This document shows positions 11,855 through 36,019 of a stretch of DNA of 64,000 nucleotides, one piece after another (within the stretch, counting starts at the first letter, position 1; each line of letters begins with the position of its first letter). The stretch lies in the NCBI GenBank assembly GCA_022448315.1, contig JAKVCA010000018.1, positions 1 through 64,000 on the forward strand. The letters are read 5' to 3'. The notes under the pieces are model-generated. The model did no database searches. It saw nothing but the letters and a program-made list of their open reading frames with translations, and was not told the DNA's origin. The DNA comes from Pirellulaceae bacterium (lineage in GTDB: Bacteria; Planctomycetota; Planctomycetia; Pirellulales; Pirellulaceae). The position numbers and the translations under genes are program-made.

Positions 11855-12080
11855 TCAGTCGCAGAACCAACGGGTCGTATGCCCATGATGACCCTGACGC
11901 CTTTATTTCCCTATCCAAACAAGGAATATCGACTGCGTGCGTCTGAAGTCAAGTAGGGGGCGAAGTTTGGATTTCCTGCCACAGTTAAAAAAACGCGGTC
12001 GAGATTGCTTCGGATTTGAATTAATCTGGAAAGATCGTCGGGATTCGCCACCGATCCTGCCACTTTTTGAGACTGTATTC

Positions 12081-18491: not shown

Positions 18492-20104
18492 GACGTCTCT
18501 CCTTCGTTTTGTGTTTGCTGATCCTCCAAAGCTTCCTCGTTTTCTTCGGCACTCAAATTTTCGGCATCCGAATTTTCATCATCCACTGGGGACGTGTCTG
18601 TTTCGGCAGAACCATCGTCCTCAGAATCTGGCTGGCTCAGCTCACGGCTGGAAATCGGGATCACGATTCGCGTCTCAAATTGCCACGGATATTCTTCGTC
18701 ACTCGTTTGCTCGGAGACGCGTTTACTGGCCACGGAACTTGCGAAGACACGCAGACGATTTTCGAGCTCCGCAACCTTCTCCGGTTGACTCACCTGAACT
18801 CCAAGATCGAAGACGCTCGCACCAGAACCGGTCGAAGCCGATAGCCGCCTGACCGTCACTTCCTGCCCACTGGGCAGGGTCTCTGAGATTTGTTTCAGCT
18901 GCTCCAGCCAGTTCACCTCGTCCCTTAACCAACGCTCTGCAACACTCACGTCGTCTGCTTTTTCCTGACGTTTTCGTGCCATATTCGCGTTAGTTTCAAA
19001 ACGTTTCTTCTTATCCTCATATTCAACCTGGAGATCGCTGATTTCACCGGCAAGGGTATAGACCACCGCGAGAATCGCCGCCCCGATGGCCCCTCCCATA
19101 AACGCCCAACGACGTAAAGGACTTGGCGGTTTGGGTGGTTTTTTGGGTGCGGTCAGATTGACTGGCACCTTTTCGGCATAAGCGGATAGAGTCGCTCCCG
19201 ACAACGCCGCAAACTGGTGGCTTCGTTCTTTATCGATGGACGGCTCAACTTCAAATGAATCGAATGGATTCAGAACTGAGACCGGTCCTTCGAATTGTTT
19301 GACCAGGACTTCAACCAGTGGAGAGAGCGTGTCGCGATCGCCGAAGACGAAAAGATGCATCGCTTCTTTGATGTCTGAACTTTCCTCGACGGCCAAACAC
19401 CGCTGGATTTCAAGTGCAACCTGCTCGGAAAGAATGTGAATGTCTTCGGTCCGGGTTCGGATGGTTCTTACGGTCCGTGGAACACCGTGTTTCAAGATCA
19501 TCAACTCAACTTCAGATTCAAAGCGAGTCACGGCAATCGACAACGGTCTAGACCGAGAGGCGGCCCCCGCAAGCAAGCCCCATGAGGCAAGGCTTCTAGG
19601 AACCACGGCCATCAACTTCATGCCAGATTCTTTTGCCTGATCCTGCAGGTTAGACCACTCAGCATCATCGAGCGCAAATGCAAGCGCCTCACCTCCGGAG
19701 GCTTCAGAAAACTGCCCCAAAACGTAATCAATGACGGGCGGTTGCTCGCTATCCCCAAGTTGCTCCTCCACCTGCGAACGCACCAACTCAGGCACCTCAT
19801 CCTCTCCTGAGGGTGGCAAGGTAATGTTTGCCATTTGGAGATTGGCTCGCGAGAGCAGAACCACAACCTGAGATGCGTTGACCCGATCTTGATTGAGCAA
19901 TTCACCCAGTTGGGACAGGGGTGGCCGGTCAGCATCCCTCTCAACCTGATCAAGCGAAGTCACACGCAACGCCTGTCGGTTCTTTTGAACCACCAAGTAA
20001 CTCAGGCTCTTACGGTCCCAATGCACAAAAACCAACCGACCTTTTAAGGTCGATTTTTGACCTGATTTGAGTTCGATCGTTGGGAAATCCACTTTAAATT
20101 TCAC
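18488..20104 (-). CDS. GspL-like protein (PilM-PilN type fusion)
   Basis: A 538-residue protein. The N-terminal 330 residues resemble the cytoplasmic actin-like PilM/GspL domain (VVLLSRANLQMANITLPPSG, VRSQVEEQL, PLSIAVTRFESEVELMILK). One membrane helix follows (AFMGGAIGAAILAVVYTLAGE), then a coiled coil and a periplasmic PilN-like domain, with an acidic tail. So PilM and PilN functions are fused, as in GspL. It recruits the GspE ATPase at the inner membrane. The start is GTG, overlapping the gspK stop as GTGA, and its own stop overlaps the gspM-like start as ATGA. Confidence 0.8.
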   Translation of the reverse strand: MKFKVDFPTIELKSGQKSTLKGRLVFVHWDRKSLSYLVVQKNRQALRVTSLDQVERDADRPPLSQLGELLNQDRVNASQVVVLLSRANLQMANITLPPSGEDEVPELVRSQVEEQLGDSEQPPVIDYVLGQFSEASGGEALAFALDDAEWSNLQDQAKESGMKLMAVVPRSLASWGLLAGAASRSRPLSIAVTRFESEVELMILKHGVPRTVRTIRTRTEDIHILSEQVALEIQRCLAVEESSDIKEAMHLFVFGDRDTLSPLVEVLVKQFEGPVSVLNPFDSFEVEPSIDKERSHQFAALSGATLSAYAEKVPVNLTAPKKPPKPPSPLRRWAFMGGAIGAAILAVVYTLAGEISDLQVEYEDKKKRFETNANMARKRQEKADDVSVAERWLRDEVNWLEQLKQISETLPSGQEVTVRRLSASTGSGASVFDLGVQVSQPEKVAELENRLRVFASSVASKRVSEQTSDEEYPWQFETRIVIPISSRELSQPDSEDDGSAETDTSPVDDENSDAENLSAEENEEALEDQQTQNEGETS

Positions 20105-21753
20105 AGTCCGGATGCCTCTTCCAGTGCGTCCTGAGGTGTTGCCCCTTGGCGTAACTCAATACTTTGAAAACCTCTTCCCCAAGCATGCCATCTTTCGATC
20201 TGTAAAGCCTTGGGTTGGCCCACGGCTGATAGGATCGCAGTACAGCGGTAGAACGCGGAATAATCGTCGCGAAATCCGATGACTTGACCGCTGTAAACAT
20301 TGCCCCCCATGGTTAAGTAGGGAGCCAACCTCTCCATTGTACTTAGATCCACAAGTTGATGTCCGAGCAGCCATCCAACGGACCGTTGATCTTCGGGAGA
20401 TCCTTGAATTTCTCCACGTTTTTGCACGATTGCCTGAGCCAGACTCGCTTCGATACCGGGAACGGCAGACAAAACTTCAGGGGTTGCGAGCAGGACGTTG
20501 ACTCGACCCGACAGCACGGTTTTCTCCGAAACCGTGATATCGTCAAGAAGGGCATGGATCCACGAACTAGGTTCATTGGTGACCTCTTGAAACGGGCTAT
20601 TCAAAGCTGCTTGGCCACCACTTGAGACAGGGACGGCGACGGTTGCACCCACCAGGTCAAAAACGGACTCAATGGGAACCGTCCCTTGAACCGACAAGTC
20701 CGCCACCCAACCACTGGCTGAACTCGTCGCCTTGAACGACTCGTCGGCCGGACCGTATTGGCGATAGGCGAGCAAGAATTCGACCCATTCTGAGGGCCAT
20801 TTCTCCAACAATTTCTGTTGAAGCTCGGATAGCGATGGATGGTTGATCCAGATTCTAGGCTGACCATCATGGGTCAAGTTTTTTTCCGCACTATGAAAGG
20901 TCAGTAGATCACGCCAAGGTGACCCCATCTCCAAAGTCTCTCCTGAAAAATCTTCGGGCCTTGGCCCCTCCGTTGAAAAAAGATCCGCGTATTCGTCCTC
21001 AACCGTTTTGATCGCCTCAGCAAATTGGTCATCCAAATAGTTTCGATCATGGTCAGAACCCCACATCTGCTCGTAATCGACCGCGCCACTAAAAACCAGA
21101 TCCGTCAGAGAGCGAACGGGTGCAGTACGAACTCCCATCACAGATGTTGTGTTCCCTGATTCAGTCGTGTTCAAAAACTGAGAACGTCGATCAGAATTGG
21201 CCGGGCTGTTCTCGAGCTCCAATGATTCTCCTTGTGTCTGGCTCCCCTGAGATGGAAGACCAAGTGCATTCAGAATTTGTCCAACTTGAAATTCAGAGAT
21301 CCCCGGCAGTGCAGATAGAGCGACCGAAGCGTGCCCTGGCGATTGCTCATCCCACTGGCGCAATGCGTTCAGATTCAGTTTGGAAGATTCATCCACCAAG
21401 CCAAATTGCCAACCGCGATTTCCGAGTTGGCCCGGAGTGGGCGATAGCAAACTGAACGACCATCCAGGCGTAAGCTCATCAAATTCGTTTCTTTCGAGGC
21501 TAATCGCGGCAAACAGGTCCTGTTTCGAAGATGCCTGCAATTGACTTTGTCGTTGCCCACGGGACAATCCGGCCCATAAGAGGCCATAATCTTGCCCACT
21601 CAAGCAGGCTTCCCTCGCCTGAGCATGTTCTCTCGCGAATGAGACGGAACTGTACTCCGCCTGCATCATATAAACAAAACCATAAGCCGCCAGAGCCATC
21701 ATCACCACGACGACCATCACGACGAGAAGTGCTGTCCCTCGTTGGACTCTCAT
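20101..21753 (-). CDS. gspK: Type II secretion minor pseudopilin, GspK-like
   Basis: A 550-residue protein, larger than usual GspK (about 320). It starts with a short basic leader and a hydrophobic helix (GTALLVVMVVVVMMALAAYGF), lacking the strict prepilin Glu5, which is known for GspK. The periplasmic part has two helix-hairpin-helix-like segments typical of GspK: LPGISEFQVGQILNALG and VPGIEASLAQAIVQKRGEI. GspK caps the pseudopilus tip with GspI and GspJ. Start and stop overlap the neighbours by four bases (ATGA, GTGA). Confidence 0.85.
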   Translation of the reverse strand: MRVQRGTALLVVMVVVVMMALAAYGFVYMMQAEYSSVSFAREHAQAREACLSGQDYGLLWAGLSRGQRQSQLQASSKQDLFAAISLERNEFDELTPGWSFSLLSPTPGQLGNRGWQFGLVDESSKLNLNALRQWDEQSPGHASVALSALPGISEFQVGQILNALGLPSQGSQTQGESLELENSPANSDRRSQFLNTTESGNTTSVMGVRTAPVRSLTDLVFSGAVDYEQMWGSDHDRNYLDDQFAEAIKTVEDEYADLFSTEGPRPEDFSGETLEMGSPWRDLLTFHSAEKNLTHDGQPRIWINHPSLSELQQKLLEKWPSEWVEFLLAYRQYGPADESFKATSSASGWVADLSVQGTVPIESVFDLVGATVAVPVSSGGQAALNSPFQEVTNEPSSWIHALLDDITVSEKTVLSGRVNVLLATPEVLSAVPGIEASLAQAIVQKRGEIQGSPEDQRSVGWLLGHQLVDLSTMERLAPYLTMGGNVYSGQVIGFRDDYSAFYRCTAILSAVGQPKALQIERWHAWGRGFQSIELRQGATPQDALEEASGL

Positions 21754-22883
21754 CGACTTGCCCCTCCGCCCGTAATGGCTTCTGCGTCACTCCCCCCGTC
21801 TGCATCAATCTTCCTTCGACCTTTCCGGTCAGGCAAACGAACATAGACCACTACGCGAAACTCCCGGGAGTCCTCTAAAGCATCGTCGCCATACAGGTCG
21901 TCACCCGTCAGAAGTGGTTCTTCAGACCATTCATTCAGGCTGGAATCCGTCAACAGGTCGACAGGTGATTCTTCATTCGTCGGATCACCCTCCAGTTCAG
22001 GTTCGGGCTCTGGGGGGCGAAGCCCGCGGGTCGGCATATCGAAACTCATTTCAATCGCAACGGGCAACGAGCCCGCTGCGGAACTTGACCAGACTTGACC
22101 GTCGTGATATCTGAATCGCGCATTCGAAAGAGGGCCAAACCGCAACTCAGGTTCCACTTGAGAGTCAGGCGGCCCTTCAGACTCCTCCTCGATGCGATAT
22201 AGATCCGCGACATCCAGCATGGCGTTCGGGTCTGAATTCTCCTCATCAAGGCTGTCCGTGGGTGAATCCAGAAAGCTCGTCTTGCGGGATAAGAACGCCA
22301 CTTCTTCGTCTCCCCAAACTTCCATTTCAAGCTCATAACGGACGACGATCATCCGTTGCTCCGCCGAATCGACAGTATCATTCCCCAACGACACCATTTC
22401 GAGCGGATCTGCCATCAGGGAGTTGAGCCACACGGTAGGACTTGGGTTGCGATAGACGGAGCAGGTGAAACCCATGGTATCTCCGTCGAAGGTACCCTCG
22501 TCATCCACCCCGATTGCGAACCCTGTCTCAGAGGACTGGGCGGCGACCGATTCACCACCCTCCTGCATGTCCTCGAAAGAAGATGGGGCCCCACTCGAAA
22601 CTCTCAGGTTGGTTGAACTTTCCCGGCTGCGACGCCGCTTCTTGCCCTTTACAAATGCTTGCTCAAGGTCAGACTGCAGGACCTGCCGAACGCCGCGCAG
22701 CAACTGAATTCGCTGCGCCGCCCGCTCACCTCGACTCTCGGCAGTCGTGAACGTCGACAACAGACTCCAAACGAGGACGACGAGCACGCTCAATAGACTG
22801 AGGGCGATCATCAACTCAAGGAGCGAGTAGCCTGACCGCAGTGCACCGCTGGGCGGGGCTTGAATCTTGACCGAGCGATTCAT
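21750..22883 (-). CDS. gspJ: Type II secretion minor pseudopilin, GspJ-like
   Basis: The ATG at 22883 is chosen because GGGGAGGAGA lies before it and it overlaps the gspI stop as ATGA. The 377-residue product has the class III prepilin signal GYSLLELMIALSLLSVLVVL near residues 16-35: cleavage after Gly, Glu at position 5 of the mature form. The periplasmic domain is acidic and carries a long insertion rich in Asp, Glu and Ser. GspJ forms the pseudopilus tip with GspI and GspK. The C-terminus ends in a basic/acidic mix typical of this cluster. Confidence 0.85.
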   Translation of the reverse strand: MNRSVKIQAPPSGALRSGYSLLELMIALSLLSVLVVLVWSLLSTFTTAESRGERAAQRIQLLRGVRQVLQSDLEQAFVKGKKRRRSRESSTNLRVSSGAPSSFEDMQEGGESVAAQSSETGFAIGVDDEGTFDGDTMGFTCSVYRNPSPTVWLNSLMADPLEMVSLGNDTVDSAEQRMIVVRYELEMEVWGDEEVAFLSRKTSFLDSPTDSLDEENSDPNAMLDVADLYRIEEESEGPPDSQVEPELRFGPLSNARFRYHDGQVWSSSAAGSLPVAIEMSFDMPTRGLRPPEPEPELEGDPTNEESPVDLLTDSSLNEWSEEPLLTGDDLYGDDALEDSREFRVVVYVRLPDRKGRRKIDADGGSDAEAITGGGASR

Positions 22884-23311
22884 TTCTCCTCCCCTTTCGT
22901 CTGCATTTCCCCCGAGTACATGTCCACACCATGTCGAGGAAGATACCATCGGACCAACCGAACCACCGGTGTTTCGGAAACACTGGAAACGCCGCCCTCG
23001 TCATCGAGTGGAAAAACCTCCGCCGTCACAACAATCACCCCCAGGTCTTCCTGAGTCTCAGCCCTCAAACGATAAGACCAAAGGCTGGATTCCGAAAACG
23101 GCTCCTCCTCCTCAAAACTCTCGCCGTGCCGCGTCGCCAAGGTTTCGTCGATCAAAGTCTGAGCGATGAGCAAAGCCTCAGCACGCTCTTGCGCTCGGTT
23201 ACCGAGATTCGCGCCGTTAGAGATCAGCGTGGCGAGCATCAGACTGCTGCCGGCCAAGATGGCAGTGGCAAGGATGACCTCGAGAAGCGAATAACCTCCC
23301 CTCTGATTCAT
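22880..23311 (-). CDS. gspI: Type II secretion minor pseudopilin, GspI-like
   Basis: From the ATG at 23311 (AGGCAGG before it) the product has 143 residues, starting MNQRGGYSLLEVILATAILA, a clear prepilin leader with mature Glu5. The longer frame to 23413 would overlap gspH by 80 bp and put the cleavage site unusually far from the N-terminus, so the shorter start is preferred. Length matches the GspI family (about 120-140). It would initiate the pseudopilus tip complex with GspJ and GspK. Its stop overlaps the gspJ start. Confidence 0.85.
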   Translation of the reverse strand: MNQRGGYSLLEVILATAILAGSSLMLATLISNGANLGNRAQERAEALLIAQTLIDETLATRHGESFEEEEPFSESSLWSYRLRAETQEDLGVIVVTAEVFPLDDEGGVSSVSETPVVRLVRWYLPRHGVDMYSGEMQTKGEEK

Positions 23312-23333
23312 CCTGCCTGTAAAGAAACCGTGC

Positions 23334-24236
23334 TCAGTTCGAATCAAGAGTCGAATCCTCACCCGCGAAGGACCCTGACTCCCTGTCGTCTTCTGGACTT
23401 CCCTGATCATCAAACCCCAATGTATCGACCTCTACATTTTCAGAGACAAGTCGGGGACGCCCGAGTTCGACACCGCCACTCCACGCATGAATTTGAACTT
23501 TCAGCTCGCGGCGTGCGTCCTGGTCGACCAGATAAAGGGTTGCCTCGCATGCTTGCCCTTGAGGCAAAAACCAAACCCATGAAATCCGTGGATCGGCAAT
23601 GGACTCCTCAAATCCAGTGCCATCGGTTTCTGGGAGCAAATCCGTTTCAAGCTCTGTGCCATTTTCCCGATCCAACGGATCGCCAAGACCCAAGGTACCT
23701 CGCAAGGCATCCTGGTTTGAGGCATCCCGGTTTAAGGCATCCTGGTTTGAGGTGGACTCCTGACGAATCACTCGGTCCACAACAATGCCTTCTGGAATTG
23801 CCCAGACATTCGCAGCACCTGAGGTAGATTCAATCTCAGGGGTGTCTACTTCCTCCAAGACCATGGCCTCGCCACTCTCATCGAGAGGGTCGGCATCACT
23901 TAGCGTGAGGGGTCTCATCGCCTGGTGCCAATTGGCAAAAGTGATCATTCCAGAATTGCACTCGATCCGCACAATGACCGGTTCACCTGATTGGATTGCA
24001 AGCAAGCGAGCTTCGGAAAGCTGGGTCCGAAGCTGATTGCCCGCTTCAAGCAGATCGCTGTTGGCGAGTGGCTTCGACAAAGAGGGCCAGGCAATCGCCA
24101 ACAGACCGACGAGTACGGTGAGGACGATGAGAAGTTCGAGCAGCGAGTAGCCTCCACGGACAGGGACACATGGAGACCGAAGTTGGATGAGTTCACAGCT
24201 CACCACAACCTTTCGCGTTCTCATGCAAGCACCCAT
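23334..24236 (-). CDS. gspH: Type II secretion minor pseudopilin, GspH-like, enlarged
   Basis: A 300-residue protein with the prepilin motif GGYSLLELLIVLTVLVGLL at 28-46. The position before gspI and the LRTQLSEARLLAIQSGEPVIV segment are typical of GspH, but it is nearly twice the family length. The excess is an Asp/Glu/Asn-rich insert around residues 130-210. Inside the insert a 15-bp sequence is repeated three times, giving NQDAL-NRDAS-NQDAL. The start at 24236 has GAGG seven bases upstream; a second ATG lies four codons later. GspH joins the tip complex to the GspG fibre. Confidence 0.82.
   Translation of the reverse strand: MGACMRTRKVVVSCELIQLRSPCVPVRGGYSLLELLIVLTVLVGLLAIAWPSLSKPLANSDLLEAGNQLRTQLSEARLLAIQSGEPVIVRIECNSGMITFANWHQAMRPLTLSDADPLDESGEAMVLEEVDTPEIESTSGAANVWAIPEGIVVDRVIRQESTSNQDALNRDASNQDALRGTLGLGDPLDRENGTELETDLLPETDGTGFEESIADPRISWVWFLPQGQACEATLYLVDQDARRELKVQIHAWSGGVELGRPRLVSENVEVDTLGFDDQGSPEDDRESGSFAGEDSTLDSN
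23705..23749. repeat. In-frame 15-bp tandem repeat inside gspH
   Basis: AGGCATCCTGGTTTG, AGGCATCCCGGTTTA and AGGCATCCTGGTTTG follow one another directly. The unit is a multiple of three, so copy number changes keep the frame. It lies in a low-complexity surface insert. Confidence 0.85.
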
Positions 24237-24313: not shown

Positions 24314-24811
24314 TCAATCGAACTCTGACGAGTCATTTTCCGAATCGTCCTCGACATCACTTGAATCATCACCTTCACCCGATTTTCCTCGGTTGGCAAT
24401 ATCGTCGTCCGTATCCGTCTCGCCATCCGGACCAGGAGAGAAAATCCTTGGTTTACTATCGCCGTTAGCCGCATCAAACTCGTATTGATATTCATTTCCC
24501 CAGGGATCCAAGGGCAGTTTATCTTCGTCGAGATAGGGGCCGTCCCACATCTTCGCGCGGCGTTCATCATCCGGCGCTTTGAGCAGGGCGCCCAAGCCAT
24601 CTTCCGTATCCGGGAAGATCTTCATATCTACGGTGTACATCTTCAGAGCGCCTTCGAAGCTGCCAATCTGAGCCTGCGCCGTCTTGATGTCCGCCTTCTT
24701 TTGTGACCCGAGCAGGCGTGGGCCAACAATCGCCAGTAAGCCCACAAGGATGATCAACACGATCATCAATTCAAGTAGTGTCAAGCCTCGTCGTTTTAAA
24801 CGCATTCTCAT
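24314..24811 (-). CDS. gspG: Major pseudopilin GspG with acidic tail
   Basis: The main subunit of the type II secretion pseudopilus. The product (165 residues) begins MRMRLKRRGLTLLELMIVLI, a prepilin leader cleaved after Gly9 with Glu5 of the mature form. The GspG body is intact: KADIKTAQAQIGSFEGALKMY, FPDTEDGLGALL, GPYLDEDKLPLDPWGNEYQY and the calcium-binding-type PGPDGETDTDDDI. Beyond the normal end there is an extra tail of about 28 residues, nearly all Asp, Glu, Ser and Gly. It is separated by about 145 bp from gspF and 77 bp from gspH. Confidence 0.95.
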   Translation of the reverse strand: MRMRLKRRGLTLLELMIVLIILVGLLAIVGPRLLGSQKKADIKTAQAQIGSFEGALKMYTVDMKIFPDTEDGLGALLKAPDDERRAKMWDGPYLDEDKLPLDPWGNEYQYEFDAANGDSKPRIFSPGPDGETDTDDDIANRGKSGEGDDSSDVEDDSENDSSEFD

Positions 24812-24956: not shown

Positions 24957-26183
24957 TTATCCGACCGACGAATTAAGGTCAAATACGGGGAGCAGAACTC
25001 CCACAATTACAAACATGACCATCACACCAATCAAGACCAGCATCAAAGGTTCAATCATCCTGACCATGACTTCGAGACGCCGTTCGATTCGCTGATCCAT
25101 TCGGTCGGCGATTTTGACGAGCACCTGGTCGAGAGTGTTCGATTCCTCCGCAATCCGGATCATCGCCATGACCTGAGGAGGAATTAAACCGCTCGTCGCA
25201 AGTGGCTTCGACAATGAATCACCCGAAGTTACGTTTTCTGCCGAAGCAGAAACCACTTCCTTCAGCAAACTGTTTCCGGTGGATTCCCCGCTGATCCTCA
25301 AGCTTTTCAGCAGAGGAACACCATTTCTAAGGAGGGTGCCAAGTACCCGACAAAATCTTGAAACTGCTGCGTCGTGAAAAATGCTCCCCATCATTGGCAG
25401 CTTAAGTTTCCAACGATCCAGCCAAGCTTTCCCTGAAGGTTTCTGGAAAAGTTGACGAACTCCAACCACGCCAGCAGCAAAGACCGCTCCGATGACCAAC
25501 CCGTATTTAATGAGTGCGTGACTCACCGCGAGAAGCAAGACGGTAATTAGTGGAAGACCGCTGCCGGACTGTTCGAGACGATCGAAAAAAGGCTGGAACT
25601 TCGGCACCATGACCGTAATCAGGAGCACCGTAATTCCGGTACCCACCAATCCCAAAATGACGGGATAAGTCAAACTGCTGATGATCTTCGCCCGCATCTC
25701 ATCCTGTTTTTGAAGAAACGCAGCCGTCCGTTCCAGCGCCTCTTCCAAAAACGCGCCTTCCAGGCCCGCCCGGACCATACTGACCGTCAACTCGGAAAAA
25801 ATGTCAGGTTCATTCGCAAGGGCTTGATCCAAATTGGAACCTTCAGAGACGGAATCTCGTATGCGAGTCAGTGCCTGTTCAAGCCGGGGGTTAACCGTGG
25901 CCTCCGACAGGGTCTGCAGTGCCTCAAGCAAAGGGACACCATTATTGAGCAAATCGGCCAGTTGCGTACACAAATCGGCAACGGCATCCTTCTTGACACG
26001 ATTTGCCCAGGGCAAAGTAAGATTTTCCAACGCCGGTTTCGCTGTTTCCGCATCCTGAACGGTCATCGGAAACAGGGCCTTGTGCCGCAATTGCTGCAAG
26101 GCTTCACGACGACTACCCGCCGCGATTTTGCCTTCCGATCGCTCGCCGGTACTGGTTTTCGCTATGTAGCTAAATTCTGGCAT
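24957..26183 (-). CDS. gspF: Type II secretion inner membrane platform protein GspF
   Basis: A 408-residue polytopic protein of the GspF/PilC family. It has two repeated cytoplasmic six-helix domains (LCTQLADLLNNGVPLLEALQ and FCRVLGTLLRNGVPLLKSLR) and three membrane segments (VILGLVGTGITVLLITVMVP; ALIKYGLVIGAVFAAG; LMLVLIGVMVMFVIVGVLLP). It binds GspE and GspL and couples ATP hydrolysis to pseudopilus assembly. Length and features are fully standard. Confidence 0.95.
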   Translation of the reverse strand: MPEFSYIAKTSTGERSEGKIAAGSRREALQQLRHKALFPMTVQDAETAKPALENLTLPWANRVKKDAVADLCTQLADLLNNGVPLLEALQTLSEATVNPRLEQALTRIRDSVSEGSNLDQALANEPDIFSELTVSMVRAGLEGAFLEEALERTAAFLQKQDEMRAKIISSLTYPVILGLVGTGITVLLITVMVPKFQPFFDRLEQSGSGLPLITVLLLAVSHALIKYGLVIGAVFAAGVVGVRQLFQKPSGKAWLDRWKLKLPMMGSIFHDAAVSRFCRVLGTLLRNGVPLLKSLRISGESTGNSLLKEVVSASAENVTSGDSLSKPLATSGLIPPQVMAMIRIAEESNTLDQVLVKIADRMDQRIERRLEVMVRMIEPLMLVLIGVMVMFVIVGVLLPVFDLNSSVG

Positions 26184-26392: not shown

Positions 26393-28087
26393 TCAATCCG
26401 CCTTCGTTACTCGAAGGACCTCTTGGATCGTTGTAATTCCATCGATTGCCTTCAACCAACCGTCAACCCTTAAGGTGGACATCCCACTTCGAACGGCAGC
26501 CTTTTTGATCTCAATGGAAGCCGCGCCCTGGTTGGCAAGTTCACGAATTTCGTCGTTCGCAACGAGCAACTCGTAGATCCCCATTCGACCACGATACCCA
26601 GTCCCACGACAGCTTTCACAGCCTTTCGGCTGATACAACCAGCCATCGGTTTCCAGGAATTTCTCCATGGGAAAATCCTCAGGCAGATCAGCCGGATCTG
26701 GTCGATAAGCTTCGCGACAGTCCGGACACAGCCTTCGAACGAGACGCTGAGCCATCACACCTTCAACCGTGCTGGCAACCAAAAACGGTTCGACTCCCAT
26801 ATCACTGAGCCGCATGAACGCACCAGCGGAGTCGTTGGTATGCAGAGTACTGAAAACAAGGTGCCCGGTTAGAGATGCCTGCGTTGCATTTTCAGCCGTC
26901 TCCAAATCCCGAATCTCACCCACCAGAACCACATCTGGGTCATGACGCAAAATCGCTCGGAGGCAAGCCGCAAACGTGAGTCCAACTTTGGATTGAACTT
27001 GAATCTGATTGATCCCCTCGAGCTGGTACTCGATCGGATCCTCGGTGGTCACAATCTTGGTATCTTCAGACTTTATCTCGGCCAATGCGCTGTAGAGCGT
27101 GGTCGTTTTGCCTGAACCGGTAGGCCCTGTGACCAACACGATGCCGTGCGGCAAGCGAATCAACTTTTGGAAGTTCTCATACACTTCCTCGCTCATCCCA
27201 ATGCCACGCAAAGAAAACTTGAGGTTCTCTTTATCCAAAACACGCATCACGACACCTTCACCGTGAAGCATGGGAATGATCGAAACGCGAATATCGACCT
27301 CTCGCCCCAGGACCCTTAGTTTAATTCGCCCATCCTGAGGAACGCGTTTTTCGGCGATGTTCAATTTCGCCATGATCTTCAAGCGACTCACGATCGCTGC
27401 CTGAAACTGGTTCATCTCCGGTGGTGTTGGCTGCTTCTGCAATACCCCATCGATCCGATAGCGAATTTTGATCCCAGACTCTTGTGCCTCAATGTGAATG
27501 TCGCTGGCCCGATTTTCGATCGCCTCACTCAAGATCTCGTTGACCAACCGGACAACGGATGCCTGCTGTGCCATTTCGGCGTCTTCGGATCCGTCCAGAT
27601 CGAGATCTTCCAGCATCTCGACGTCACCGAACTGCTGCCGCTGTGCTGCGACCAGACCATCAACCGTTTCTGCACCAACACCGAGATACTTTTTGATCAA
27701 CCGGCCAACAATTGCTGAATCCGCGACCACCGGGACCACTTCGCACTCGATCGAAGTTGAAACGGTATCAACCGCGTTGAAGTCGAAGGGGTTGGTCACC
27801 GCAAGTTTCAGAACATGCCCGTCGCGTTCGAGGGGGAAGATCTCGAACCGATGGATGAGTTTCAATGGGAATCCCTCGATCGCTTCGGGAGCGATCTGAA
27901 TATCGTCCGTCTCCAGCCATTCCAAGCCCAGCGACCGGCACGTCTCGACCATCAATTCCGCACCGTTTGAGCACTGAATTTCTTCAGCGAGAGCGTCCCA
28001 CCCTTCGCCTGCCCGGATCCCATCGGCAATCCTTCGGAGCTGAACGGTGTCTAATGAAGTGACTTGGCTGGTGTTGTTGATAATCAT
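26393..28087 (-). CDS. gspE: Type II secretion ATPase GspE
   Basis: The assembly ATPase of the system. The ATG at 28087 (MIINNTSQV) gives 564 residues; the frame is open 24 codons further but the context is poorer. The N-terminal N1E/MshEN domain is followed by Walker A GPTGSGKT at about 321-328, the Asp box ITTEDPIEYQLEG, Walker B-region DPDVVLVGEIRD, the His box ASLTGHLVFSTLHTND, and the zinc-type four-cysteine motif (LCPDC ... GCESC) used by GspE. It is cytoplasmic and docks on GspL/GspF. It lies 374 bp downstream of the giant N-domain gene. Confidence 0.95.
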   Translation of the reverse strand: MIINNTSQVTSLDTVQLRRIADGIRAGEGWDALAEEIQCSNGAELMVETCRSLGLEWLETDDIQIAPEAIEGFPLKLIHRFEIFPLERDGHVLKLAVTNPFDFNAVDTVSTSIECEVVPVVADSAIVGRLIKKYLGVGAETVDGLVAAQRQQFGDVEMLEDLDLDGSEDAEMAQQASVVRLVNEILSEAIENRASDIHIEAQESGIKIRYRIDGVLQKQPTPPEMNQFQAAIVSRLKIMAKLNIAEKRVPQDGRIKLRVLGREVDIRVSIIPMLHGEGVVMRVLDKENLKFSLRGIGMSEEVYENFQKLIRLPHGIVLVTGPTGSGKTTTLYSALAEIKSEDTKIVTTEDPIEYQLEGINQIQVQSKVGLTFAACLRAILRHDPDVVLVGEIRDLETAENATQASLTGHLVFSTLHTNDSAGAFMRLSDMGVEPFLVASTVEGVMAQRLVRRLCPDCREAYRPDPADLPEDFPMEKFLETDGWLYQPKGCESCRGTGYRGRMGIYELLVANDEIRELANQGAASIEIKKAAVRSGMSTLRVDGWLKAIDGITTIQEVLRVTKAD

Positions 28088-28461
28088 GTTTTCACCAGGA
28101 CGCGTCCATGCAGAGGGACCATTCCGATCGCGATTGCCCAAAAATCCTCTTTGGGCCAAAACCGGGGGTCGAGTAAAGGAGGGGGAGAGCGAACTCTTAT
28201 AACGCGTGCGGCGTCGGTGGGACCGAAGGAAATCGTCAAGACATCATTCGGCAGCGGGGCTAGGATGAACACCCGCAAAAGCTCTGGGGGGGTGTGGCGG
28301 GAAATCTTCGCAATTTCCCCAATTGCTGCATTGAGTCTAACTTGCGGGACTCCGGCGGGTCAACGGCAAAAACCCACCCAAGCGGGTGTTTTCCGGCCAT
28401 CCTCATGGTCTTCGACCTATCGCGATAGAGTGTCAACCACTAATTCAACATGGCCGATAGA
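28088..28461. other. Intergenic region between the giant N-domain gene and gspE
   Basis: No gene is seen. It contains a hairpin that could end transcription of the giant gene (28368-28392), so gspE may be started from a promoter in this gap. No clear promoter could be picked out. Confidence 0.45.
28368..28392 (-). terminator. Possible terminator of the giant N-domain gene
   Basis: On the minus strand CACCC - GCTT - GGGTG is followed by GGTTTTT. The stem is only five G/C-rich pairs with possible A-T extension, so it may be weak or partial. It lies about 70 bp after the stop codon. A near-identical hairpin with the same T run is found on the other side of the giant gene (36028-36048). Confidence 0.45.
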
Positions 28462-31400
28462 TCACTGCCCTCGGAGAAGTGCATCGATCGCATCTTGCAT
28501 GCGAGCAGAATTTGTCCCCTCCAATTGAATGATATTGATGCTTTTGGCACTTCGAACTCCGGACTCTTCATCGAGGCGGTCGATGAAGCTCTTGACCTCA
28601 TCTGCCAATTCAATCGGTGCTCGGATCACGATCGAGTTGGTGGTCTCATCCGCGCTGAGCGTCAACAAAGGTCCAGCTGAGGCGGCATTGATCTGTCGGA
28701 GTACCGATGCGACTTCAGGAGAAACCCCTTCGGGAATATCGACCGAACGGCGCCCCCCTCCCGCGCGTAGCTGTGTCTGATAAACGCTTTGCAATATGTT
28801 GATGACCCGATCGACTGGGGAGTGTTCGACTTTAACAATCTGTGGAATGGTGCTTTGCAAGGTTTCCATCAACTCATCAGAATCGAGAACCCGTAACAAC
28901 TCCTCAATGGTATTTCGCTCCGCCCGACTGCCGTGGACGATCAATGCATTGATTCTTCCGTCTGCGACAATGGCAACTCGGCTCAAAGCCCCAGCATTGG
29001 CCTGCCCAATTCGGCGGAACAGGTCGTTAAATAGGTTTTCCAGTTGACTCGCTCCTGCATTCTTCAACAAATAGACCGAGAAATTGCCCATTCGTGCTGA
29101 GGAAGGATCCTGTCGCAAGAGACTTCGCAGAAGAGATTCGAATTGATCGAGCGCTTCAAGGTCGTCGGAAGCAATCGTCCAGCGACTGATTCCAGGTACC
29201 ACGACGATGGGGCTGGCATCCTGTGTCGATTCCTGAGCCTTGACCGTCGTCTCGCTTCCATATTCTTCGGTGGGCACGAACGCTGAACAGGGATCGATTG
29301 ATTCCGATGACGAGTCCAAACTCGGTGAGTCGTCACTTTGGGGTTTCGGAGCGTCACGAGAATCGGCTGGAACCGCGTCGATTCTCAACATTTGAATTCG
29401 ATTGGGCCTTAGCGATGGCCATATCTGCTCAATCTTGTCCATCGCGTTCTCAAGTTGGTTGGACGAGGGAAAGCTTCGGATTCTCCCGGCAGGCTGGGCG
29501 TCACCCCCAATCGACTCGCCCAACTTGACCAATAACTCGCGGATTCGAATCAGCTGATCTTCCGTCGCTCGAACAAAGATTTGACCAGTCCCTTCATCCA
29601 TTGAAATCGATGGACGATCGGAAGGTGCGGCATCCGCGAAGAGCTGAGAAATCGTCATCTGAATCGCGCGAGGGTCATTTTCCTGAAGCGAAAAAACCTC
29701 CAGAGTTCGCGGCTTCCGCTCGAATTGCTGGACCGTCTCTTCCACCAGTTTGAGCTGCATTTCATCGCCAACGACCACCAACTGTTCTTGGAGAAGATCG
29801 TATTGCACTTTTACTTCGGGCTTCGCATCAAAAAACAACGCTTGAACCGCCTCTTCGATGGCAGTTCCATCCGCACCTACCAGTGAAAAAACTTTAAGTT
29901 TTCGAGTTCGACTCGCAGGCGGTGGCAAATCTATTTGTTGAATGATCTGCTCAGCCCGTCGGTGATCAGCAGCCAATCCCACAACAAAAATGGTTGACGT
30001 TTCGGGATCAAAACTCACTCCAACCGTCCGAGAGTCCGGCATGGCATTGGCAACCGCCTGGTAAGCAGCGTCCCCATTGGTGTTTCGAATCGCATAGGCC
30101 TTAAGCGTTGGCTCACGACCATCGACCTGATCCATTTCTTCGATGATTTTTGCCACCTGTTCATGGTCTGCAAGGGTCGCCGTTACAAAAAGCCCTCCCG
30201 TTGACGGATCTCCTGAAAAGCGCGCCTTAGGCAAAAGAGGAACCAGTGCCGCTTGCAATGCTGCCGGATCACCTTTGGTAAGAGAATAAACCCGGGTCAC
30301 CAAGCCTTCTCCACCCACCTGCTCAACCTGCATGATCACATTTTCGATCTTTTCCATTTCCGCAGCAGACGCAGTCACGACAAGACTATTGCTTGAAGCG
30401 TCAGCAGCCACGATCGCATCCGGACTAAGATCTTGGATTGCATTATCAAGCACGCTGGCCTCCGAGGTTCCCAAATTGAAAACCTTGGTCACCAAATCTT
30501 CGCCACCAATTCCCTGGTACTGTTTAACGACATCTTCGATCTTTGCCTGATCTTCGGCCGAAGCGGTAGCGACAATCGTGGGAGGATAACGATCAGAAAC
30601 AATCAGGGCTCGAGGAACCAACTCCGTGAGGACTGCCGAAAGATCTCGCGCATCTCCGGAGCGAAGCCGATAGACCTTCGTGATCCGTTCAATCGCCCCT
30701 CCCTCCTCGACCTGCTCAACCACCTTTTGGATTTTTGCAAGTTCTTCATCGGAGGCCGTCACAAACAGGGTGTTTGTCGAAGCGTCGCTCGCCACTTTCG
30801 CCTGAGGGCTCATCGCCTGAATCGCATCTTCAATCTCACCGGCCTCAGCCACTTGGAGAGCGAACACCTGCGTCTTCATCTCGGCGGCTCCGGCCCCCTC
30901 GTACTGCTCCACCAAGGCATCCACTTTCAGCAAATCGTCGGGGGAACCAGCTGCAACCACCAACGGCGGTGAACGCCGAAAAGTAAAAAAGCTGCTCGGC
31001 ACCAGTTGACCCAGGACCAAAGCCAAATCCTGTGAGTCAGCCTCCAGGTCCAGGCGATAAACGCGAGTTTCACGGGGCTCATCTCCGGCAGTGTCGACCT
31101 GCTCGACCACGGCCTTGATTCGTGCCATTTCCTCAGGGGTCGCTGTCACCACGAGTCGGTTTGTTGTGGGCTCGCCTGCAACAGAGGCCTCAGGGCTCAT
31201 CGCCCTGATCGCCAAAACAAGGTAACGCGTTTCGGCCGATTCCAATTCAAAAACTCGAGTTTCCAAGTCTCCTTGACCCTGAGATTGGTACTGCTCAATG
31301 ATGTCATCGACCTTGACCAGTTCCTCCTCGGTAGCCGACGCGACGACCAGTGGCGGCGTTCTTCGATAGGTAAACGCGGCTTTCGGCAAGAGTTGCTGGA

Positions 31401-34400
31401 GAACAGTGGCCAGATCCTGAGAGTCCGCATCGAAAGCGAGTCGGTACACTTTTGCAATCCGCTCCCCTTCATCAAGCGGCTGATCGTAGTCGGCCACGAA
31501 TTGGGCGACCTTTTCATGCTCTTCCGCCGTTGCGGTGACCGCGATGCTGTTCGTCACTTGGTCAACACCGAGAGTTCGACTTGGGAGCAAAGCAGTGAGC
31601 ACCGAACTTGCTCCCTGTGCCGTCGCATGCCGCAGTCGGTAGACTTCCAAGCTCAACGTTTCGGAGGATGGCAACTGGCTCTCCAGGGACTGAATCCGTT
31701 TCGACAGCTCCTCCAACGCCCGAGTCGAACCATAGGCCAGAAGGCTATTCGTTTCCGCATTGACTTGCACTGAAACGCCTGCGGGAATTTGACCACTCAA
31801 CGCGTCATTGATGGTGCTTGCCTGGACTTTGTCCGACTCAAACGGAAACACCTTCACCTCAACATCGGCGACGGTGAGATCAAGAGCCTCAAGCTGTGTC
31901 AATAATTCTGCAACTCGGGTTTGTCGATCTAGAGTCGCCCAGACGGTCAATTCCCCTTCCCGTTCTGCCTCAAGAAATTCCAGACCTGTAATCGTTTCCT
32001 GAAGAATTTGAAGGGCTCGCGAGGGATTTAGATCCCCCAGCTGGTGAACTTGAATGACACGATTCGCCGGCGGAGAAATTTCCTTTTCCAGTTGGCGTAT
32101 CAGCGCGTCCAACTCCTCATGTTGTTTCGGGGTGGCCCAAACAAGCAGAGTGTCGAGCGAAGTCCCCTCAACAAACCGCACTTGAGGCAATGCCTCCAGA
32201 ATCATGCTTCGCGCGTTCGCATTCACATCCTCGCGGACCACGTGGCTTTTCAGTTCGGCACGAGGTGACTGCTGAACAGCATCAGTCAACGCCTGCACAA
32301 TTTCGTCAATCTTCTGGTGCCCTTGCTTCGTATCCGAGACCACTTGCTGATCGGTCCCCGCTCCCAATACGATTTGCGCGGCAGGTCGCTGCTGCGCGAT
32401 TAAAAGCGCAAAGGAATCGCCTCGGCCTGCGGGTAACTGATACGTTTTCAACGATGTCTGATCTCGTTCCGCCTCAGAATCCACCTCCCCCAGAACTTCG
32501 CTCAACTTGAGATGCTCTGATTCCTTCGCCCAAACAGCGACCGGCCCCGTCGGACTGACCTGGATCGCTTCGGCAGACGGGAGAGTCTGTTGAACCAACG
32601 CCAGAAGGTTCCCCGCAGCAGCCCCCTCGAGTCGATAAACCTTCATGAGTCGATCGCCCGATTTCTCCTGCTGTTGGGAAATCTTTTCGAGTAGCGATTT
32701 GACTCTTTGGTGATCCTGTTCCCCTGCCAGGATGACAAGTTGTGACCCTGCCTGACCCAAGGAGCTTCTGATCGTTGGCATCAAAGACTGGATCGTGGCG
32801 AGTAATTCGTCGCTGTATGCCGAGTCAATTGGATAAATCTCTAGAATCTGCCTTTCCTCAAACCTCGCGCCGAGTTGTTCCAATGCCTCGCGAATCCGAT
32901 CATGGTCCAGAGTTTCGCCCAAAACGGTTAAAGTTCGACTCGAAGCATCCACACTCAGCACGGCATTGGGGGCGATTTGTCCAAGAATCGAGGGGAGCGT
33001 ATCGAGATTTCCTGAGACAACATCATACGTCTCGACTCGAACCTCTTCACCATCGCGTGGATCGTTCAATCGCTCCAGAGCTTGCTGAATTTCCTGTTGC
33101 TCGACGGCGGTCGCCGTCACAAGGATCTTGCTCGAAGTCGTATCCACAGCAAACGTCGCTTCAGGCCAGAGAGGTTGCAGGAGCGTCACCGCCGAAGATA
33201 CGGTAATGCCCTTAATCGGGTAGGCTCGAACCTCGGGCTCTCCCCGATCCGAGCCGGGGCGATCCACTTGCTGGAGCATTGCTTTGACACGCCCCTGCTT
33301 TTCCAAGGGAGCAATGACAACGAGTTGCTTTGAACTCGCATCGAGCACCCATTGCTCCGATTCAAGCCAGCTGCCGAGTAGAATCTCGACACTCGCAGGC
33401 TCAATATGCTCGAGTGTATAGGCAACGAGCACCGCCTGCTCGTCGTCATCCACAGGAGTTTCCAGTTCACTGACGAGCGATTCAATCTCTGCATGAACTT
33501 CGGGGGAAGCTCGAATCAGAAGCCGATTTCGTACAGGATCGGAAGTAACCGTTGCATCGACCAACACAGAGGCGAGTAATGTTTGCAGTTCTGAGAGCTC
33601 GAAGCCTTTCACTTGATAGGACTTCATCACGGACTCAACTTTGGCCGGCAGTTCCTCCTGAATCTGAGCCAAGAACATTTCCAACTGTTGATGCAAGACG
33701 GGTTCGGCCCATATCAAGAGTCGCTCTCCATCATTGCCTGGTAAAATCCTCGCCTCAGGAAACCTCTCTGCCAGCAACTCGTTCACAAGCGCCGTATTCG
33801 AAGTCTTGAGTAAATAAGTCTTCAACTGTTCCGGGATTGGCTCCGCAGTGATTTCGACAAGTTGCGTGAGCAACGTAGTCAGGTAATCGATTTTCTCTTG
33901 CGTTGCCCAAACCAATAGCTCTCCCTCATTGCGTGATTCCAAAAATCGGATTCCCTCCAATTCTTCGGACAACGAGGCCTTCAATTCTTCAAACTTCTGA
34001 AGGACAGGCGCCTTCACGGGGATCGCTTGCAGCACTTGAGCAACCTCTTCGATTGCCTGACTCTCCCACTGCGTTAAAAGTTCTTCGAACGAGGTCAGCG
34101 ACTCGGGATCCCCGACCAAATTGAAAAATTTTCCGTCCGCTGTTGGCGTCACCTGAAGATCAGGAACGAGGCCAGTAAGAATCCCTAGATCGGCGTCATC
34201 CAGACTCTTGGGTCGAACCACCCGCTTGATCGTCGGCGAGACCTGTTCGTTCATTTCCGCGAGTTGCTCAACGAAATTCTTGACTTGAGCTTGCTGGGGA
34301 GGTGTACCTCGGACAACCAACTGTCCGGTTGACGCATCGGCGACCAGTTGCGCGGTCGGCATAAGCCCCTGCAGCAGTTCCGCGATGGACGCCGCCTGGG

Positions 34401-35646
34401 TCCCCGGCACTTCATAGATCTGAACGCTCTGATCCACGTCAATGGGTTCACCCGCGACCGTGGAAAGCATCGCACGAATTTTTCCGTGCTCATCCTCTGT
34501 CGCATTGACGAAAAAACTTTCATTGACTTCATCAAACTGAACCGTGACATCCGGAAACGCCCCGGCGATCTGCTCGCTCAGTGTCAACCCACTGCCCTGA
34601 TCCCATGGATAGACACGTAATGTTCGCTCGGGAACCTCTTGCTTGGCGGCCAACATCTGATCAATGAAGGTCTTGATGGCCTCTTGCTGGCTTGGAATCA
34701 CAAACGCGCTCAGCAGGTGGGTCACTGGATCCACCGTGATTTGTTCGCTGCTGACCAGCAGTTTGACCGTCGCCAAAGTGGATTCCGGATCCAGTGCCCC
34801 GAGTGAGTAGGTGGCGAATACTGGCTTGGGAGGTTTCTCAGGAGGCTTCGGGGCAGGGACAGGTTTGGGGATGGGCACCGACGAGATCAGGACGTTGATC
34901 ATCTCCATCTTGCCTGCAGTCTCGACGACCAACACCTTGCTGGTGCCCACGAGCGGAATGATTCGACCATACTGCCCCAGATAAGGCTCAACGGTTTGCA
35001 AAACTTTGTCCATTGGCCGGCTACCAATGTTGAACTCAACACTCACCATTTCAAATCGCCCACGTGAGGGCAGTTGTTCAAGGGTGACGCGTGGGAAGTA
35101 CTCCAGCGGAATGGTCTCCGAAAGTTCGATGACCAACAGCATCCGCTGTTGCCGAATCAAAGCAAAGCCTCGAGTCAGCAGGACACTATTCAAAAGGTCA
35201 ATGGCCTGGGCAGGCGTGTAGCTACGCGTGTCTGAATAAGTAAACGACCCTTTCGGAACTGCGTCCATCACCAAAGACAAACCATCTTGGCGGGCGAACC
35301 ACTCTAAAACGTCATCCCACTTCTGTTCGCGAAAATTGAACTTGAGTTTGGTCGAAGCCCCCCCACTCTGGAACTGCTCTCGTTGCTCCGCCGTCAGAAC
35401 CTCAAGAATCTTTTGGGCGTATTCACCATTGATTGCCGCCGCATTCTCGGGCGCTTCGGTAATCGCGTTGGTTTTTTCCTGTATCAATGCTTGAATCTGG
35501 GAGCGTTGCCCGTCCTCAAGCCCCATTGCTTCCGCAACCTCGGGATGCATCAAACGATTGACGTCGCTCGCTGGCTGTGCCAGTCCGGAAACGCACAACA
35601 ATCCAACGGTGACTAAAGCCAAAGTGGCACTTCGAAAGGTGCACAT
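28462..35646 (-). CDS. Giant exported protein of about 29 tandem secretin N-type domains
   Basis: The ATG at 35646 gives 2,394 residues with a signal peptide (SATLALVTVGLLCVSGLAQP). A short helical segment carries two LTxxQ-like motifs (LEDGQRSQI, LTAEQREQF), then an STN-like domain (FNFREQKWDDVLEWFARQDG). From about residue 240 to 2,100 some 29 units of 64-68 residues follow one another. Each reads roughly V-x-V-Y-x-L ... L-x-x-x-P-x-A-x-x-x-x-D ... L-V-V-x-A-T ... K-I-x-x-x-x-x-Q, the secretin_N/NolW pattern. Two longer N-like domains close the protein (ITALIVHGS-type, NSIVIRAP). No channel domain (no VPVLGDLP motif) is present. It is the first gene of the gsp cluster, so it presumably acts in the periplasm with the secretin. 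Confidence 0.9.
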   Translation of the reverse strand: MCTFRSATLALVTVGLLCVSGLAQPASDVNRLMHPEVAEAMGLEDGQRSQIQALIQEKTNAITEAPENAAAINGEYAQKILEVLTAEQREQFQSGGASTKLKFNFREQKWDDVLEWFARQDGLSLVMDAVPKGSFTYSDTRSYTPAQAIDLLNSVLLTRGFALIRQQRMLLVIELSETIPLEYFPRVTLEQLPSRGRFEMVSVEFNIGSRPMDKVLQTVEPYLGQYGRIIPLVGTSKVLVVETAGKMEMINVLISSVPIPKPVPAPKPPEKPPKPVFATYSLGALDPESTLATVKLLVSSEQITVDPVTHLLSAFVIPSQQEAIKTFIDQMLAAKQEVPERTLRVYPWDQGSGLTLSEQIAGAFPDVTVQFDEVNESFFVNATEDEHGKIRAMLSTVAGEPIDVDQSVQIYEVPGTQAASIAELLQGLMPTAQLVADASTGQLVVRGTPPQQAQVKNFVEQLAEMNEQVSPTIKRVVRPKSLDDADLGILTGLVPDLQVTPTADGKFFNLVGDPESLTSFEELLTQWESQAIEEVAQVLQAIPVKAPVLQKFEELKASLSEELEGIRFLESRNEGELLVWATQEKIDYLTTLLTQLVEITAEPIPEQLKTYLLKTSNTALVNELLAERFPEARILPGNDGERLLIWAEPVLHQQLEMFLAQIQEELPAKVESVMKSYQVKGFELSELQTLLASVLVDATVTSDPVRNRLLIRASPEVHAEIESLVSELETPVDDDEQAVLVAYTLEHIEPASVEILLGSWLESEQWVLDASSKQLVVIAPLEKQGRVKAMLQQVDRPGSDRGEPEVRAYPIKGITVSSAVTLLQPLWPEATFAVDTTSSKILVTATAVEQQEIQQALERLNDPRDGEEVRVETYDVVSGNLDTLPSILGQIAPNAVLSVDASSRTLTVLGETLDHDRIREALEQLGARFEERQILEIYPIDSAYSDELLATIQSLMPTIRSSLGQAGSQLVILAGEQDHQRVKSLLEKISQQQEKSGDRLMKVYRLEGAAAGNLLALVQQTLPSAEAIQVSPTGPVAVWAKESEHLKLSEVLGEVDSEAERDQTSLKTYQLPAGRGDSFALLIAQQRPAAQIVLGAGTDQQVVSDTKQGHQKIDEIVQALTDAVQQSPRAELKSHVVREDVNANARSMILEALPQVRFVEGTSLDTLLVWATPKQHEELDALIRQLEKEISPPANRVIQVHQLGDLNPSRALQILQETITGLEFLEAEREGELTVWATLDRQTRVAELLTQLEALDLTVADVEVKVFPFESDKVQASTINDALSGQIPAGVSVQVNAETNSLLAYGSTRALEELSKRIQSLESQLPSSETLSLEVYRLRHATAQGASSVLTALLPSRTLGVDQVTNSIAVTATAEEHEKVAQFVADYDQPLDEGERIAKVYRLAFDADSQDLATVLQQLLPKAAFTYRRTPPLVVASATEEELVKVDDIIEQYQSQGQGDLETRVFELESAETRYLVLAIRAMSPEASVAGEPTTNRLVVTATPEEMARIKAVVEQVDTAGDEPRETRVYRLDLEADSQDLALVLGQLVPSSFFTFRRSPPLVVAAGSPDDLLKVDALVEQYEGAGAAEMKTQVFALQVAEAGEIEDAIQAMSPQAKVASDASTNTLFVTASDEELAKIQKVVEQVEEGGAIERITKVYRLRSGDARDLSAVLTELVPRALIVSDRYPPTIVATASAEDQAKIEDVVKQYQGIGGEDLVTKVFNLGTSEASVLDNAIQDLSPDAIVAADASSNSLVVTASAAEMEKIENVIMQVEQVGGEGLVTRVYSLTKGDPAALQAALVPLLPKARFSGDPSTGGLFVTATLADHEQVAKIIEEMDQVDGREPTLKAYAIRNTNGDAAYQAVANAMPDSRTVGVSFDPETSTIFVVGLAADHRRAEQIIQQIDLPPPASRTRKLKVFSLVGADGTAIEEAVQALFFDAKPEVKVQYDLLQEQLVVVGDEMQLKLVEETVQQFERKPRTLEVFSLQENDPRAIQMTISQLFADAAPSDRPSISMDEGTGQIFVRATEDQLIRIRELLVKLGESIGGDAQPAGRIRSFPSSNQLENAMDKIEQIWPSLRPNRIQMLRIDAVPADSRDAPKPQSDDSPSLDSSSESIDPCSAFVPTEEYGSETTVKAQESTQDASPIVVVPGISRWTIASDDLEALDQFESLLRSLLRQDPSSARMGNFSVYLLKNAGASQLENLFNDLFRRIGQANAGALSRVAIVADGRINALIVHGSRAERNTIEELLRVLDSDELMETLQSTIPQIVKVEHSPVDRVINILQSVYQTQLRAGGGRRSVDIPEGVSPEVASVLRQINAASAGPLLTLSADETTNSIVIRAPIELADEVKSFIDRLDEESGVRSAKSINIIQLEGTNSARMQDAIDALLRGQ
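30290..31465. repeat. 387-bp two-domain super-repeat, three copies, in the giant gene
   Basis: Within the giant gene the units starting at about 31465, 31075 and 30690 are more like each other (KVYRL ... DSQDLA ... PPLVVA ... EQY) than like their neighbours; the alternate units (TRVFEL / TQVFAL / TKVFNL ... AMSPEA ... TNRLVVTA) also match one another. The period is 387-388 bp (129 residues). This points to recent duplication of a pair of domains. Confidence 0.75.
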
Positions 35647-36019
35647 GGGACGTGGGTCTCCAAATCGATCATGAATCGTCGAGCGGTCGTCTTTGTGGAT
35701 ATCCAAGACGACTTCAGGGCTCGGAGGACGAAAAGGTGGGGGCATCTGCAGTGCTCACACGGCAGACCAAAAGGGTTTCTCGCTGAAATCACCGTCTCTT
35801 CATTCATCGAGCACTCGTTCGTCATTACCCGACTCTGGCTCGAAAATATGAATGTTGAGCGCGTCTTTGAATCCAACAGCTGCAGCGAGCGAATTGATTT
35901 CGCCGTAGCGCCTGTCCAACGCCTGCACGAGATTCCCTGCTAAATGGTGGGTATAGTTCGTAGATTAGTTGATAGGCCTAAACAGGTAAAGGAAGAAAGA
36001 CAGGAGATCTAGACAGATC
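35647..36019. other. Upstream region of the giant N-domain gene
   Basis: About 370 bp in which the promoter of the giant gene must lie. It contains the direct repeat AGATCT spaced by a few bases near 36006-36020 and no convincing gene. A rightward frame that begins like an isochorismatase (MNRRAVVFVDIQDDF) was judged to be chance. Confidence 0.4.

Follow-up and report, generated by a model that had tools for sequence, protein, structure and literature searches.

A giant channel-less protein of secretin N domains in a planctomycete type II secretion locus: probable front half of a split secretin

Introduction

GspD, the secretin of the type II secretion system (T2SS), usually consists of an N0 domain, three further N domains (N1-N2-N3) and the channel, and secretin channels are multimers. 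In the PilQ of Thermus thermophilus, a chain of 757 residues forms a 13-mer 350 Å long with six stacked N rings, and this six-ring PilQ has been described as one of the largest characterised (PMC5745081). In the mitochondrial T2SS, N domains occur as separate polypeptides (GspDN1-GspDN3), N0 is said to be lost altogether, and yeast two-hybrid results suggest a contact between GspD and GspDN1 (PMC8134430). Among the titles and abstract openings listed from the open-licence literature, none describes a secretin with tens of N domains; the term “giant secretin”, which appears in PMC6155069, is used there for ordinary secretin portals.

Here a gene from a 64,000-nt window of planctomycete DNA (the window being the whole stretch analysed) is described, the product of which is referred to as the giant. 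It resembles GspD in its N0 fold, its Secretin_N domains and its place in a gsp operon, and its C-terminal module is similar to N2-N3. It differs, however, in having about 31 N domains instead of three and no channel, the channel being carried by a second protein in which no N0 was detected. PilQ shares with the giant a longer-than-usual N stack and rings of the beta-alpha-beta-beta-alpha type, but is a type IV pilus secretin with six rings and the channel in one chain. The mitochondrial GspD is likewise split, with Secretin_N domains on separate polypeptides; yet it is eukaryotic, has lost N0 and, in the accessible text of its description, shows no expansion to tens of domains. Fused proteins of other planctomycetes also combine N0, tens of Secretin_N domains and a gsp operon, but keep the channel in the same chain. 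Secretins or secretin halves of one phylum occur as a single chain in some members and as two chains in others, and the 15 to 63 N domains seen in parts of Planctomycetota compare with six rings in the longest N stack that we found described in the literature covered (PMC5745081).

The giant protein and its domains

The earlier note had placed the giant at 28462-35646. The gene is real and lies on the minus strand; its unbroken frame, however, extends beyond 35646, which is the ATG of residue 34 (Table 1). Since a hydrophobic, signal-peptide-like stretch (recognised by eye, and read as a signal peptide before) comes next, this ATG is the likelier start. The two LTxxQ-like motifs noted previously are present as well, and a profile of the region that holds them has a weak match to Spy, a periplasmic chaperone (E=0.004).

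The Pfam search along the protein that had been proposed with the earlier note matched the whole giant to Secretin_N (PF03958) with E=1e-121 and 397.7 bits. As the curated cut-off is 28.2, the giant qualifies as a member of this family. Twelve stretches each pass E≤0.01 alone, and individual stretches also exceed the curated cut-off. With an HMM built from the units of the giant, 27 units score above 4 bits and a further one, at 520-568, is weak; none of 200 shuffled giant sequences contained any unit above 5 bits. Together with the N1-like domain (from residue ~230), a domain broken by an insert (~2089-2211) and the best stretch found by Pfam (2223-2290), these units bring the total to about 31 N1-type domains, to which one N0 and, at the C-terminus, a half domain are added. 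The Secretin_N array recognised earlier is therefore confirmed, and its count, formerly about 29, has been revised.

The match of residues 137-200 to the gspD_N0 profile remains below the curated cut-off, so that N0 is not assigned by the profile; the AlphaFold2 (AF2) model of this domain does superimpose on the N0 of GspD 4jtm (Z 11.8, rmsd 2.3 Å, 80 residues). The conserved C-terminal module comprises an N domain split by a disordered insert, followed by two N2/N3-like domains, the last of which bears a conserved GGGR...IPEGVS loop. Residues 2223-2403 match residues 171-328 of GspD 5zdh (E=7.3e-5). In the terminal half domain, the AF2 model shows a helix of modest confidence and no strand. 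The idea that this half domain is completed by the N-terminus of GspD was dropped, as the GspD of the window seems, by eye, to open with a whole N domain.

The secretin channel (PF00263) was not found in the giant by Pfam at E≤0.01, which leaves the protein outside the channel family. It was also absent from four further giants and four shorter channel-less relatives that were scanned. By sequence and predicted fold, the giant consists of N0 and about 31 Secretin_N domains, and has no channel.

The units share ~20-24% mean identity at lags 1-6, and DNA repeats are short. An alternating two-unit repeat of up to 56% identity, located at residues ~1432-1816 (window 30298-31452), is the only clear sign of recent duplication in the giant. 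Recent amplification of the entire array was rejected because of the short DNA repeats and the low identity of the units, this stretch being the exception. Plasmid carriage was rejected as well, since the N-terminal 297 residues of the giant had no match in 72,556 plasmid records.

Table 1. Features of the giant gene and of the adjoining T2SS locus (positions in the window)
Feature	Position	Strand	Evidence and remarks
Giant N-domain protein without channel	28462..35745	minus	single open frame, 2427 aa; probable start ATG at 35646
LTxxQ-like helical region, ~residues 60-127, after the signal-peptide-like stretch	35365..35568	minus	helices in AF2 model; weak Spy match
N0 domain, ~residues 129-208	35122..35361	minus	PF21305, 17.5 bits (cut-off 27); AF2 model versus 4jtm
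N1-like domain (from ~residue 230) and 27 Secretin_N units, one weak (520-568), to residue 2084	29494..35058	minus	Pfam, unit HMM, partial models
Conserved C-terminal module, residues 2085-2399	28549..29493	minus	alignment of relatives; match to GspD 5zdh
Terminal half N domain, residues 2400-2427, and stop	28462..28548	minus	same place in relatives
gspE, ATPase	26393..28159	minus	PF00437, E=1.1e-140
gspF, platform protein	24957..26183	minus	PF00482, E=3.7e-60
gspG, major pseudopilin	24314..24811	minus	PF08334, E=4.7e-28
gspH-, I-, J- and K-like genes	20101..24236	minus	weak GspH, N_methyl and T2SSK/HHH matches; gene order
Genes at the L and M positions	17565..20104	minus	no Pfam match; named by position only; order kept in relatives
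gspD, 1249 aa, Secretin_N domains and channel	13590..17339	minus	PF03958, PF00263; no N0 at E≤0.01
Lipoprotein-like gene beside gspD	12481..13509	minus	lipobox by eye; conserved beside gspD in relatives

Predicted fold

Two stretches of the giant were modelled with AlphaFold2, namely residues 60-570 (mean pLDDT 83.0, pTM 0.39) and 1817-2427 (mean pLDDT 75.7, pTM 0.35). Every complete unit in both of them has the arrangement beta-alpha-beta-beta-alpha, which, along with the PF03958 match, bears out the earlier assignment of the units to secretin N domains. Over 276 residues, the N-terminal model aligns along N0-N3 of PulD (6hcg) with a Z of 12.5 and an rmsd of 14; because of this rmsd, the match holds domain by domain. 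From N0 to N2, the same model deviates from 3ezj by 20 Å. The check on pairs of units, which had also been suggested beforehand, was favourable: two pairs of adjacent units of the C-terminal model fit adjacent domains of solved secretins (128 residues of 5wln at 3.8 Å, Z 10.8; 121 residues of 3ezj at 3.9 Å, Z 10.1). Three-unit fits of this model were poor (184 residues of 5zdh at 12.8 Å). Since these fits are poor and both pTM values low, the long-range geometry of the giant is not fixed by the models.

The type II secretion locus

The giant heads a T2SS operon, as had been read from the sequence earlier: gspE, gspF, gspG, genes of minor pseudopilins and gspD adjoin it downstream on the same strand, and this gene order is kept in relatives. 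A terminator-like hairpin is found between the giant and gspE (28388-28375, minus strand); as the scanned region holds 10 such sites against 9.6 expected, no regulatory break between the two genes is claimed. A T2SS operon of P. limnophila, Plim_0410-0401, is shown in a figure of a transposon paper on this species.

N0 binds the HR domain of GspB/OutB, and the HR domain of GspC has been reported to bind N0 too (PMC9239104). In the window genome (~97% complete), no match to GspC (PF11356) was obtained at E≤1, so that the usual partner of N0 is not seen there; the same profile, which matches only 3 of 14 control genomes, has a limited reach.

Channel-less relatives

Among named records, the best matches of the giant come from Pirellula and other planctomycetes, and its N-terminal 274 residues match 51 of 60 relatives at E≤0.001, shorter proteins included. 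The relatives were taken from named genomes, as the best 80 of 122 confirmed loci, of which 47 contain a complete ORF and 33 an ORF that runs off the contig. The 40 complete ORFs of at least 1500 aa in this set encode 1588-2851 aa with 15-34 units above 5 bits, and all 40 end in the shared C-terminal module. None of the 80 ORFs, including the 33 that are truncated at a contig end, matches the channel of the window GspD, which agrees with the lack of a channel claimed before. Five contig-cut ORFs of the same 80 loci already reach 2927-3882 aa, and one further genome encodes 3749 aa with 47 units above 5 bits. According to the alignments, both ends of the giants are conserved and the middle varies in length.

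Long N-domain proteins next to gsp genes, for which the earlier note had proposed a search in other planctomycetes, do occur. Among the 35 complete giants of the best 80 loci that leave room for a neighbour, 23 are followed by gspE on the same strand within 2.5 kb, and in 29 the fetched locus contains at least one gsp gene. The remaining 12 lack gspE within 2.5 kb; six of these lack every gsp gene tested in the fetched locus.

A shorter channel-less class (~1060-1500 aa, 4-8 units above 5 bits, some members with Gly-rich tails) was also observed. Its members head gspE-F-G operons in L062, L150, L151, L158, L160 and L161, precede gspE in L064 and L159, and stand without gsp neighbours in L052, L054-L058, L059 and L063. 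The frame at L071:9725-12406, with gspE ~4.3 kb further on, is only 894 aa long and probably represents an interrupted giant.

When 195 genomes sampled evenly across the phylum were searched with an N0-N1 profile, 29 matched at E≤1e-20; 27 of these, the window genome included, belong to the class of the window. Channel-less frames above 2000 aa were present in only four of the 29 (G000, G152, G166, G233), most of the others having ~1050-1360 aa; giants are therefore a minority in this sample. Since G152 (contamination 6%), which is placed outside the class of the window, has the split form, the division into split and fused forms by class is not clean. Of 110 rows, 12 were dropped as duplicates or too short, and a tree was built from the N0-N1 region of the other 98. 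In it, the giants fall on one side of a weakly supported branch (92/65), and all channel-less proteins are set apart from the fused ones (100/99), but long branches meet.

Fused giants in another class

In another class of planctomycetes, perhaps Phycisphaerae, similar N-domain arrays are joined to a channel. The frame at L155:5247-15974 encodes 3575 aa with 35 Secretin_N stretches and the channel (PF00263, E=8.6e-47) at 3341-3506; its start is N0-like (PF21305, 14.5 bits, below the cut-off). When the N0-N1 region of L155 was used to seek fused forms in 81 genomes of its class, 63 genomes matched at E≤0.001. Many of these matches lie in frames of 700-1150 aa; by our count, 19 genomes had a matching frame of at least 3000 aa. 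Thirteen of the 19 were read, L155 included, and all of them (L155, L174-L185) have a C-terminal channel and 32-63 Secretin_N units in 3288-6165 aa, a range that includes the giant and GspD of the window taken together (2427+1249 aa). The largest is L174, with 63 units; L175 starts right at the border of the fetched sequence. With the middle of L155 as the query, two more genomes showed matching frames, of 5018 and 4834 aa. At least three gsp homologues lie upstream of the fused giants in nine of ten regions, and their order gives the giant the place of gspD; the upstream region inspected in L190 contained no gsp homologues. The fused giants hint at unusually long export pipes.

Distribution of N0

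With an N0 profile built from 15 giants, the domain was detected in each of the 12 fused proteins that have an intact start (E from 5e-16 to 5e-7). All 101 channel-less rows matched too, some genes being represented by two rows. None of 18 distinct channel ORFs from the window genome and the loci around channel-less proteins (one identical row dropped) gave a match, the best E being 10. The profile leans to the giants yet reaches the other class, and could miss a very diverged N0 in GspD. Pfam found no N0 in the window GspD at E≤0.01 and none in six other secretins at E≤1. Since both the channel-less and the fused proteins were found via their N0-N1 region, the presence of N0 in them is uninformative by itself; the features that lie outside this selection are the missing channel of the former, the channel of the latter and the missing N0 of GspD.

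The locus carries its N domains and its channel on separate polypeptides of one gene cluster, and at the level of sequence both the split in one lineage and the fusion in the other are evident. The simplest reading would be that N0 and most of the N stack form a protein of their own in one lineage and are chained with the channel in the other. Because the GspDs tested are without N0, the giant has one and fused forms exist, the giant is more aptly taken for the front half that the secretin is missing than for the scaffold or lining suggested in the earlier note. To this note, which is largely supported, the present analysis adds the split, the absence of N0 from GspD, the fused relatives and the variable number of units.

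Proposed model and alternatives

In a hyper-elongated T2SS secretin that is split in two, the giant probably supplies N0 and the N rings, which would stack into a tube of the order of 100 nm and make contact with GspD. Stacking of this kind has a precedent in the six rings of Thermus PilQ (PMC5745081). The giant would be exported by Sec and arranged as 12-15 copies in register with the ring of GspD. At the outer-membrane side, its N2/N3-like C-terminal module would dock on the N-terminal GspD ring, and N0 would sit at the inner-membrane platform. The ~31 rings of the giant and 6-8 more would then stack into one conduit of roughly 37-39 rings, the length of which would be set by the number of units and, at a rough 2.5-4 nm per ring, may amount to ~90-155 nm.

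The low pTM values and poor three-unit fits of the models would also suit a flexible tether, that is, a string of N domains in a single or few copies, which fastens its C-terminal module to the GspD ring and N0 with the LTxxQ helices to the inner membrane, linking platform and pore across a varying periplasm and forming no tube. The number of units varies while the ends of the giant stay conserved, as such a link would have it; moreover, the width of the planctomycete periplasm varies, and crateriform structures seem to anchor the inner membrane (PMC5394234). However, two pairs of adjacent units fit adjacent domains of solved secretins, and the fused relatives hang like domains on a channel domain. 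As this domain is multimeric, a dozen or more parallel chains are to be expected, and the tether seems rather unlikely.

More doubtful still is a secretin paralogue which, having lost its channel, serves as a periplasmic scaffold or chaperone and binds substrates, the pseudopilus or peptidoglycan outside the secretin stack. The LTxxQ region, with its weak likeness to Spy, points in this direction, as do the 12 of 35 complete giants without gspE next to them and a second channel-less protein of the window genome, described below; but such a protein would explain neither why N0 is missing from the GspDs tested and present in the giant, nor why the fused forms occupy the gspD position. An artefact, be it genes joined by a frameshift or misassembly, which had been named in advance as grounds for refutation, or a decayed secretin after channel loss, has nothing beyond the missing channel in its favour and can safely be set aside, since the frame is open in the window, both terminal parts are conserved, and all 40 complete relatives of at least 1500 aa share the C-terminal module, none with a channel.

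If the split, hyper-elongated secretin is extended to the phylum, a broader picture may be drawn, albeit tentatively and with less confidence than the split itself. Some Planctomycetota might export proteins through periplasmic pipes in which ~40 to 65 secretin rings are stacked to a length of roughly 100-250 nm. Such pipes would be made of a single type of chain in one class and of a giant N0/N-ring protein plus a short-necked channel in the other, with the number of N domains tuning the length to a wide or invaginated periplasm. If true, these pipes would be many times longer than the longest stack found described in the literature covered. They could be the internal part of crateriform structures. 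In P. limnophila, these structures occur where the inner and outer membranes are close (PMC5394234), and for this reason a straight 100-nm tube fits badly at such sites. The giants make it possible to test the reach of a secretion machine across an enlarged periplasm, the assembly of a split secretin, the number of units as a length ruler, and crateriform structures as secretion machines.

Other secretins and neighbouring genes of the window genome

The window genome contains eight frames with a near-complete match to the secretin channel and one with a partial match. Within the 9 kb read around it, no gsp genes accompany a second channel-less N-domain protein (L059:2987-6325, 1112 aa). A second large channel-bearing secretin (L060:3359-7306, contig C83) consists of 1315 aa with eight Secretin_N stretches and no N0; no giant is present in the 11 kb read around it, and it has a lipoprotein-like neighbour of its own.

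Homologues of the lipoprotein-like gene of the window adjoin gspD in L040, L046, L060, L065, L066 and L067, and its product is a candidate pilotin of the planctomycete secretin. The end of this gene is overlapped by a plus-strand frame (11937-12782), the C-terminal part of which looks, by eye, BON-domain-like.
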